Assembly (NCBI GenBank): GCA_949130485.1
Contig: OX422183.1
Location: 32,210,640 to 32,274,639, forward strand
Origin: Agelas oroides
Lineage: Eukaryota > Porifera > Demospongiae > Agelasida > Agelasidae
Length of the DNA stretch: 64,000 nt
Direction: 5' to 3'
The translations under genes and the position numbers were made by a program. This document shows positions 45,842 to 48,800 of the stretch, one piece after another (positions within the stretch are counted from its first letter, which is position 1; every line of letters begins with the position of its first letter). The notes under the pieces are model-generated. The model was not told where the DNA came from. It was given only the letters and a program-made list of their open reading frames with translations, and did no database searches.

Positions 45842-48800
45842 ATGTATCCATATTCAGGAAATACAAACAGCAATAACAGTAATATTGGAGCTAGGTTTCG
45901 TCGTGATACAGCAAGATTGACACCAAGCTACCCCAGGAAGACTACTACTCCTCTTCGACCAACCGGCTCTGTGTCTGGTGGTGTTCAAGTCGGTGGCACG
46001 AGCAAGTCTTTCTCCTCAAACTCACTTCTACCTTCCAAGATTTCTCCTGGTGAGCTTGCAAACATACTTGTAATATGCAGTAGAGTCAGGTTCGGTACAG
46101 TGCCATGGAGTCTAGTAGAGCTATGGTGCAGTGTAGTAGAGCGCAGAAGAGTCAACTGGAGACAAGTAGAGCCATACATGTTCACATTACCTTCTGTTTG
46201 AGGGATATGATGAACTCCCAGACAAATGGCGTACTGAAGATTCTGTTTTCCTGGATGTTATCACGGGGAAGGAGCTGCCCCACATTGGTAGCTTAATGTA
46301 TATTCCTCTCAATTCCGCCATTGTGGTTGAAGTGTACCGAGTGTTGCTGTGCATGTGTATATATGTAACAATTGCTCATTAAAGTAAATTAGAGAACTGT
46401 TTGTTGTTCAACAGGAGCAGTGTCCAGTCGTACCAGTCCTTCAGCGACTAGTAGTAAGATCTTCGACCACTCTCCGAGTACTGTAGAGAAATGGCGTAAC
46501 ACAGCAGGTAGCACTGTTACTGCAACCAAGAGTATCACGAGTGGCACTGCAACCAAGAGTATCATGGGTGGCAGCGGCAGTCCACGACTTCCACGACAAG
46601 GTTCATTTGACTCCTTTGCAACAAGGGACCGCTTGCCTTCACCCCTACCCAACAGGAGGAGGAGCAATTCTGTCACTGTCTCCTATGTTCTCTCAACTCC
46701 AACTCCAGGATTCTCAACTCCGACTCCTGCTAGGAAATCTGCACGAGAGAGAAGTAAATCCGTTTCATTCTCACTACCTCCAAGGCTTTCTGGGAGAAAA
46801 TCCCCTCCTGCGTACCAGTTCCCTCCTGTGTGCACACAACACACATCACAACCCAGCAAACTGAAAGATCCAACACAAAAGACAACAGCACCAAAGGGAA
46901 TCGGAACTGCTACTACAGTATCTCCTACCAGGACTGCTATTCCCCAGAGCCCTTCTCGTGAGCGGAGGAGAAAGGTAAGGGAGGAGGAGAGAAGAAAGGA
47001 GGAAGAAGAGCAAAGAAGAAAGGGAAAAAAGGAGGAGAGGAGGAGAAAGGAAATGGAAGAGGAACAGAGGAGAAAGGAGGAGATGAGGAAGATAGAAAAG
47101 GAGAGGGTATCTAGAACTGTAACTGTAGCTAGACCTGTGACTCCGTCCCACACCTCCAAGCCCCCCTCTCCTGTTCCAAATCCAAGACTGGTACGGAGCT
47201 ATTCGACATCTTCACTGTCTCCCGGGATAAGTGATGGAGGGTGGAGCAGTGATGGGTCTTCCCAAGGATCACTGGGGCTGAGTCCCACATGGAAAGACAG
47301 TGGCAGTACAGTGAAAGACTGCATGGTTTGGCCCCAAGGTACACATAGTTCTATGTGTGTAGACAAGAGCGTGTAATGACGTCAATGTGAAAGAGGTGTA
47401 CAGGGTAGGATGGCTTGTACTGCATGTATGAACAACCAATGAACCACATCTCCCTAAAAAAAACAAGGCCTAGATCACCCACTGCGCAGGACGTGTTTCG
47501 GACAAAACTAGGCCTCATCAGCTGTGCTGGGGTGACTGGGAGAAGGGGACTCATGCTCATGTTCTTCTTCACAAGAATGGAGTGTACTGAGCTCTAGCCT
47601 CATACCCAGGCCACATTAGAACACCTTTTCCCACATGGCCTGGGTGCAAGGCTGTTGGAGATCCATCAAAATTGCGAGATTAGTAAGCCTGTAACTCGAA
47701 AGCAGTGTATGACTCATTCCGAGGCCACAAAACACAGTCTGGAACAAGGCTATATAAACTGTGTATATGGTATGGTTGCGAAACTCTTGACAACAGGTAT
47801 GTAGTGACCATCAGAGATTGCCTAGATGACCCACTTCTGCCATAGTATGTACAACACAGTGCAACACGGAAATAAATTATGTTGACTGTGAGATCATCCA
47901 ATGTCAGCCAACTGACTGCCTTTCTTGTATGAGATTGTCCCCATTTTCGAGTCACTCCAGCACAGCTGATGAGGCCTGGTATTGGCCAAAACCCATTCTG
48001 CGCAGTGGGTGACTTTGTATAACATCTAGGCATGCATTTTTCCGTGGTTCGTTGACTGTTTATGCACACATGTAATTTCAACACAGGCAACATTGGTTGT
48101 GTGACAGCTGCTAAAGCCACTCCCGTCAGTCCGGTGATGTATTCAGGAAGCATCTTCAGTGGTGGTGTCCGTCCTGTAGGACAGATAACTTTGAGCAGTG
48201 GAGAGCGGCCGCTGAGTCCTAGTTTTGTTGCCAGCATGGCTGCACGGGTTTCTGAACAGTCGACGCAGCAACGCTCAGTATACTACAGCACTGCAGGTGA
48301 GGCTGTGTGTGTGAAGGTAAAGGTGTATTAAAATACTTTTAATTAGCACACTTGTGATCACACGTTTTAACTTTGGGTTTGCATGAAGCCTCACTTCCAG
48401 GCTCCGGTACAGAGGAGAAAAAGAAGCCTTGCAGGACTACTGTAGCACACACAAGGAGGACCATATAGCCTTGTTCCCAGGCTTCCCTGCTCCGGAACGC
48501 GAATATGTATATGTGGGGAGAGCCTGGTATCTTTTCTCACATGAGCATGACGTAAAATACCAGGCTCTCCTGAACAACTTCAATGTTGGCGTTCCGGAGC
48601 GAGGGAGCCTGGGAATGCTGAGCTATTGTAGCCTCGTTCCCAGGCTCTCCCTCACACCAGCTAAGGGACCTGGGAACAAGGCTGGCAGGGGTATTGCAGA
48701 CTGTCTATAGGTGGTCACATGTTACAGATGTGTATGTATCATATAATACAGAGGTGTCTAAGTTTGATGTACATTTTTGTGATGGTCTCCCTCCCTCTCA

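Follow-up and report, generated by a model that had tools for sequence, protein, structure and literature searches.

The window (the whole stretch of 64,000 nucleotides of Agelas oroides DNA analysed here) carries on its minus strand, at 47474–47536, a motif that is very probably a decayed type I hammerhead ribozyme, left behind by an old, 5'-truncated insertion of a Naiad-type Penelope-like element with the order GIY-YIG endonuclease, CxC linker and reverse transcriptase (RT). Judged by their sequence, the hammerhead copies in the window are 5'-truncated pieces of one retrotransposon family, and this family appears as a Penelope-like element with permuted domains, of the Naiad type, and not as a retrozyme. 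The Penelope-like identity is argued from the GIY-YIG/CxC/RT order, the hammerhead past the stop, the fixed 3' end and the scattered 5' ends. The copy at 47474–47536 most likely does nothing today and is very probably dead, since it is mispaired and lies antisense to a USP pre-mRNA, and the sense copy that shares its intron lacks the core.

Hammerhead copies in the window

Read on the minus strand from 47536 to 47474, the sequence runs through the 5' strand of helix I, CTGATGA, helix II, GAAAC, AC, GTC and the 3' strand of helix I. The letters of helix I are GTCACCC, CA and GCACAG on one side and CTGCGC, AGT and GGGTGAT on the other, while helix II consists of GGCC/GTCC closing a loop of 7 nt. 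The type I core is present, with CUGANGA, GAAA and UH in order and helix I open to the flanks.

An earlier note on this DNA had described a hammerhead with an intact core. The core is indeed letter-perfect, but the function that this implied is not borne out, as two helix pairs are broken. The helix I of about 11 pairs given there has to be redrawn as 7 + 6 pairs flanking a CA/AGT internal loop, with one of the 13 an A.C mismatch in this copy. Helix II has four pairs in the family, one of which is a C.U mismatch here. Both helices are completely paired in family copy L004, and not in the window copy. Helix III is minimal, as the note had seen: it is near-absent, with AC between GAAAC and GTC. 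Most fetched copies of the family have a palindromic ACGCGT at this place, and the window copy has ACACGT, which is non-palindromic.

The following copies, fragments and possible relics lie in the window:

47474..47536, minus strand: hammerhead relic with an undamaged core and one broken pair in each of helices I and II
between 47490 and 47489 (after 47490), minus strand: predicted cut of the hammerhead at 47474–47536
47422..47551, minus strand: 5'-truncated fragment of the Penelope-like element, element 3482–3621, 81% against the L031 copy; 3' end (RT start side) at left
47951..48013, plus strand: second, inverted hammerhead relic with a damaged core and one broken helix I pair
47905..48066, plus strand: second fragment of the element, element 3448–3618, 79%; 3' end at right
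25626..25696, plus strand: third hammerhead relic, in which CTGATGA and GAAAC survive and helix I has decayed
25587..25667, plus strand: third fragment of the element, element 3459–3538, 94%
25252–25282 and 25341–25370, plus strand: possible weaker relics; not significant (15.1 and 10.6 bits, E 0.22 and 3)
63301..63331, plus strand: possible relic comprising helix II and the core; not significant (16.3 bits, E 0.11)

With the family model R1, the copy at 47474–47536 scores 85.8 bits and the one at 47951–48013 scores 87.6 bits, each row itself being part of the model. The copy at 25626–25696, a row absent from the training set, reaches 35.3 bits (E 2e-6) with the family model. The stretches with non-significant scores (10.6–16.3 bits, E 0.11–3) may be older relics. 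In the second copy, G12 and GTC have been lost, with AAAAC replacing GAAAC and ATT replacing GTC. This copy and the one at 47474–47536 belong to a 76-bp inverted repeat (84%) and lie 414 nt apart in the same intron. The earlier note had overlooked the inverted copy and the third copy. Several hammerhead-like relics occur within 25160–25740, together with a direct repeat of AGCTGCCATGTGGCCATG about 485 nt apart, and this region may be a nested or older related repeat.

A high-copy retrotransposon family

The assembly searched comprises 259 Mb in 141 contigs. The exact-core pattern CTGATGA-R-N13-Y-GAAAC-NN-GTC has 368 matches genome-wide (184 + 184) and none in the reversed control, which bears out the view of the motif as part of a dispersed repeat; the window copy is among the 100 matches listed. 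A search with 86 bases returned 1145 first-look candidates, 40 of which were scored, and the 39 besides the window copy are 91–92% identical.

The earlier note had also suggested a ribozyme-bearing retroelement, and this agrees with what is found around the RT. Among the best 30 of 151 RT matches, CTGATGA...GAAAC lies behind the RT frame in 29, at about the same distance. The exceptions among these 30 loci are L034, which is without the 3' part; L041, with ATC for GTC; and L036, where a deletion brings the hammerhead nearer. Many copies of the family are 99% identical in the RT.

A natural copy, L031 4642–8262 (C1:30858641–30862261), contains a stop-to-stop frame of 1012 aa. GIY-YIG is matched at aa 148–237 with 24.7 bits (cut-off 22.6), and RVT_1 at aa 652–862 with an E of 2.7e-5 and 24.4 bits, which is significant yet below the cut-off of 29.6. 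RT and GIY-YIG endonuclease are therefore carried in one ORF, the arrangement of a Penelope-like element. In the family unit, the hammerhead lies about 325 nt past the RT stop, and the first 58 nt are repeated at the end of the L031 copy. The first ATG of the next unit's ORF lies about 210 nt past the cut site. Units occur singly or in tandem, with a tandem spacing of 3558 bp on contigs C2, C11 and C19; on C1, two core matches among those listed are 3553 apart on one strand. Near one family copy there is a tRNA-like match of 35.2 bits (L007 2266–2337, minus strand), possibly a tRNA gene or a tRNA-derived SINE.

Domain order, affiliation and relatives

In the Naiad/Chlamys branch of Penelope-like elements, as described by Craig et al. 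in 2021, the endonuclease is said to come first, followed by a CxC linker and then the RT. The present family has 642 homologs, of which 120 were listed. Among ten of them that were scanned, GIY-YIG precedes RVT_1 in nine, with GIY-YIG below the cut-off in two of those nine, and the tenth has RVT_1 only. The CxC between the domains is invariant in two overlapping sets of aligned proteins (C428/C430 in 12 of 12, C406/C408 in 22 of 22). Also invariant, in the 12 aligned proteins, are C133, C136, H155, H170 and H176, which may correspond to the CCHH motif of Naiads. This motif is found in the Naiad endonuclease and is absent in Chlamys.

The family thus resembles the Naiad clade in its N-terminal GIY-YIG, CxC linker, C-terminal RT, pLTR-type tandem copies and the presence of some inverted copies. 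It differs in having a canonical hammerhead core. Naiads were reportedly described by Craig et al. in 2021 as being without canonical hammerheads, whereas 29 of the 30 RT loci carry one here; that lack is a reported absence and not a defining part of a Naiad.

Relatives from other assemblies (L063–L067) gave no hammerhead by the core pattern, at Rfam gathering score or with the family model, and the only ones to combine a long RT match with more than 1.1 kb of 3' flank are L063, L064 and L065 (31–50% identical). The result for L063–L065 is consistent with the absence reported for Naiads, and a divergent hammerhead could be missed, because the model knows one family and Rfam missed this very family too. 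Within the same genome, six divergent RT matches were picked. In three of them, a hammerhead match follows on the same strand as the RT, at distances of 272, 344 and 353 nt beyond the RT match; a fourth carries its hammerhead match on the opposite strand, and the remaining two show none. Viral contigs yielded neither a relative nor the motif. One Penelope-like homolog, P0065, has a UCH deubiquitinase domain C-terminal to its GIY-YIG and RT (117.3 bits), and precomputed domains place a UCH domain in the Penelope-like homologs P0061, P0063 and P0073 as well.

Insertion pattern and a proposed mechanism

Insertion ends were measured at 60 loci (L001–L030 and L033–L062). As L034 is without the 3' part, this gave 59 rows, with six loci counted twice. 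The 3' end falls at element 3615–3621, that is, within 7 nt, in 57 of the 59 rows, and at 3595 and 3566 in the other two. The 5' starts are scattered from element 1249 to 3482 across the 35 rows with 5' flank, among which L009 and L062 are one locus and L036 is an internal deletion. The family therefore displays pLTR/tandem organisation, 5' truncation and a fixed 3' end together.

The cut site lies between element 3543 and 3544, and the common 3' end about 75 nt past it. Reverse transcription appears to start about 75 nt beyond the cut site, which implies that the RNA of the inserted copies was uncut at its last hammerhead. Nine regions were inspected for the starts of long copies. Five of them have one, at 19, 72, 109, 137 and 152 nt past the cut site, with none of the five upstream of the cut and none at it; in the other four regions, no start was found. 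The idea that the cut defines the 5' ends is unsupported, since no 5' end was found at the cut site.

The fragments at 47422–47551 (minus) and 47905–48066 (plus) stand head-to-head, with 3' ends outward and 353 nt between them. This geometry is shared by the window pair and L048 (two of the 35 rows); at L002, the 3' ends of two pieces face each other. Two-strand priming would produce pairs arranged like the window pair and L048. The window pair may also represent two old insertions that are independent of each other. The 76-bp inverted repeat had suggested the terminal inverted repeat of a DNA transposon, a reading that was rejected: the fetched copies have an RT frame or consist of its truncated 3' parts, and a comparable inverted tail occurs in only one further locus, L048.

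For a Penelope element of Anolis, PMC11167929 describes tandem pLTRs, an internal start of reverse transcription, and target DNA of which both strands are cut and extended; hammerhead cutting was seen there only with protein added. By analogy, a mechanism can be proposed for insertion and hammerhead use in the present family. In multi-unit or read-through transcripts, the ribozyme would fold with the internal loop of helix I against loop II, and the palindromic ACGCGU of helix III could let two ribozymes pair. Paired ribozymes are suggested by the near-absent helix III, as reported for Penelope variants and for amphibian hammerheads, which are said in passages of PMC7229834 to pair two ribozymes through helix III. 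The predicted cut after GUC would separate the units of tandem or read-through RNA, and, on nicked target DNA, reverse transcription would begin at a point internal to the RNA, beyond the cut site.

Folding, covariation and use of the ribozyme

The best fold of 47474–47536 is not a hammerhead, and 50 of 200 shuffles fold as well (z -0.66). The sense copy in the USP intron, 47951–48013, has a z of -1.51 (14 of 200 shuffles as good), and the stretch 25626–25690 a z of +0.66 (150 of 200). Family copy L004 has a z of -3.36, with one of 200 shuffles as good. Its best fold (-30.9 kcal/mol) contains both helices, I and II, with some of the core letters paired as well, and the plain hammerhead fold, at -28.5 kcal/mol, lies above this minimum.

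At gathering score, Rfam gave no match in the whole window, and with E up to 10 there was no hammerhead match in 2 kb, where weak matches to microRNA and other models look like low-complexity chance. With 121 bases as query, the best match of the window copy was Hammerhead_HH9 (RF02275), at 12.8 bits and E 1.1. The same model was the best match of L004 (23.9 bits, E 3e-4), and both scores are below its gathering score of 52 bits; the model has the same core and helix layout as the family. The earlier note had made its reading depend on a covariance-model hit above threshold and on a core conserved elsewhere in the genome. The outcome is split: nothing scores above the Rfam threshold, yet the core is conserved in copies elsewhere in the genome.

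A serious rival, although one that we regard as unlikely, is that the hammerhead is a cargo without function, no longer used and duplicated with the element owing to its position near the RT start site. Compensatory base changes were found at none of the 18 pairs among 13 distinct sequences of the family, and the template of inserted copies must be unprocessed RNA. In vitro, hammerhead mutants of the Anolis element did not affect insertion, according to PMC11167929. Against these points stands the persistence of the motif itself, with the CTGATGA...GAAAC core in 29 of 30 RT loci and 368 copies of the exact core. In seven old copies, the hammerhead is also kept better than its flanks (370 of 432 positions versus 551 of 754), a count that is not relied on, being biased: it was the hammerhead that led to these copies, and part of the flanks lack homology.

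A second hammerhead family and the retrozyme alternative

As a further alternative, the earlier note had named a retrozyme. Such elements are short, non-coding and arranged in tandem, and two hammerheads excise their RNA, which is then closed into a circle. The family does have a type I hammerhead in a tandem-forming repeat, and the same genome harbours a separate retrozyme-like family with 606-bp tandem units. Metazoan retrozymes resemble both families in their type I hammerhead and tandem copies, but passages of PMC7229834 give them units of 170–400 nt, a GC content under 45% and no RT, whereas the window family has an RT and units of 3558 bp. Its hammerhead follows the RT frame in 29 of 30 loci, and the closest two exact-core matches, among 100 listed of the 368, are 1845 bp apart; short non-coding tandem units are not what this family consists of. 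A retrozyme origin of the window motif is accordingly improbable, and the Penelope-like reading is preferred.

The 606-bp family emerged from the core pattern with other loop lengths, which had seven matches (control 0 and 1). Two of the seven are a different ribozyme, CTGATGA-GGCCCAMTTAGGCC-GAAAC-CGYG-GTC, which scores 44.5 and 41.7 bits against Rfam HH9, below gathering. Allowing up to two mismatches, this second ribozyme occurs 61 times (control 0); a search for the exact core plus GTC gives 34 copies (control 0 and 1). At the C5 locus (L085, C5:11182000-11185300), three full units of 606 bp and a 546-nt piece are identical. Further loci of the family are these:

L087–L093
C3:504868-506672
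C4:5907724-5908657
C9:62610-68080

Five multi-copy loci use both strands, minus then plus, with 3' ends outward, and a sixth, on C10, has two plus copies. In the four fetched loci on C3, C4, C5 and C9, the arms meet head-to-head, each starting at an arbitrary position in the unit, and the units of these arrays are 97–100% identical. Seven outer 3' ends fall at unit positions 90, 93, 97 and 99 and at 159, 165 and 166. The three loci viewed on both sides have one 3' end from each cluster; for C9, the left end was covered.

The unit, with a GC content of 0.51, is longer and richer in GC than the metazoan retrozymes described in passages of PMC7229834. The family looks like a retrozyme, probably one moved by Penelope-like machinery. 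A more speculative proposal, which we put forward only tentatively, is that a Naiad-type element with a working hammerhead lends its machinery to this 606-bp non-coding passenger, producing head-to-head concatemers with two alternative RT start points. If so, the two start points at the outer 3' ends would mean that both target strands prime at once.

Two loci near contig ends, L084 (C12:9426900-9431049) and L086 (C6:54000-57000), are 93% identical over 2.2 kb, which indicates that at least these two are a duplicated subtelomeric block. A second-family hammerhead whose core reads CTGAGGA lies in this block, and similar copies occur near several other contig ends. Among the matches listed, the second-family copies inspected near contig ends point inward. 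A Terminon-like, telomere-attached element was considered for this family and rejected in view of the duplicated block and of L084, which reaches the end of C12 and has no TTAGGG.

The host intron

Two features define the surroundings of the inverted pair:

47339..48107, plus strand: host intron (inferred GT-AG), with GT at 47339, AG at 48106–48107 and compatible exon phases
49578..49784, plus strand: host USP exon piece, Pfam UCH match of 42.9 bits, 1.5 kb beyond the intron

The stretch 47339–48107 is a supported, if predicted, intron of a plus-strand USP gene. It contains both fragments, 47422–47551 and 47905–48066, so that the placement of the hammerhead antisense inside a USP intron holds on these signals. 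Elsewhere in the window, at 54893–55732, an open frame of 36-aa tandem peptide repeats is probably a 108-bp DNA minisatellite, because GTGAGT recurs every 108 bp from 55023 to 55671.

HH9 and HH10 are intronic hammerheads of amniotes. If the host had retained the hammerhead as a processing element of the USP intron, in the manner of these two, this would fit HH9 as the nearest Rfam model and the intact core letters of the minus-strand copy. Such a role is nevertheless very unlikely: that copy is antisense to the gene and has two helix pairs broken, the sense copy is without G12 and GTC, and both fold little or no better than their shuffles, as given above. A chance match to a hammerhead-like pattern can be dismissed, for although CTGATGA-N{6,30}-GAAAC alone is expected 0.33 times per window and occurs at least twice in 4 of 100 shuffles, the 368 exact-core copies against 0 in the reversed control, in register with an RT element, exclude it at the level of the family.

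Relation to known elements and implications

Hammerheads in Penelope-like elements are already known. They were reportedly described in Penelope/Poseidon elements by Cervera and de la Pena in 2014, and small hammerhead variants of Penelope-like elements are said, after the work of Lunse et al. in 2017, to cleave as dimers. The family is like these variants in its near-absent helix III, palindromic in most fetched copies. According to passages of a 2017 review (PMC6155905), hammerheads occur in all available Penelope-like sequences, usually in a minimal form without helix III.

The Anolis element PAc, as described in PMC11167929, shares with the family a type I hammerhead in the pLTR, a fixed 3' end from an internal start of reverse transcription, and tandem units. 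Its endonuclease is C-terminal and its ORF starts at helix II of the hammerhead, whereas the present family has an N-terminal endonuclease and its first ATG well past the cut site.

A literature search at the level of titles and passages found no report of a hammerhead in the permuted-domain branch of Penelope-like elements. If the branch was indeed reported in 2021 as lacking canonical hammerheads, a hammerhead in it is new, and the family is a probable new variant.

Finding a conserved hammerhead in a high-copy member of the permuted clade would mean that this branch can retain the ribozyme or acquire it again, and the hundreds of copies of the family are a system in which to ask about its role on natural RNA. 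A retrozyme-like family with Penelope-like junctions bears on which reverse transcriptase moves retrozymes. If the 606-bp units are indeed passengers of a Naiad-type element, the machinery behind the movement of metazoan retrozymes would be identified, and the absence of hammerheads reported for Naiads would be overturned.
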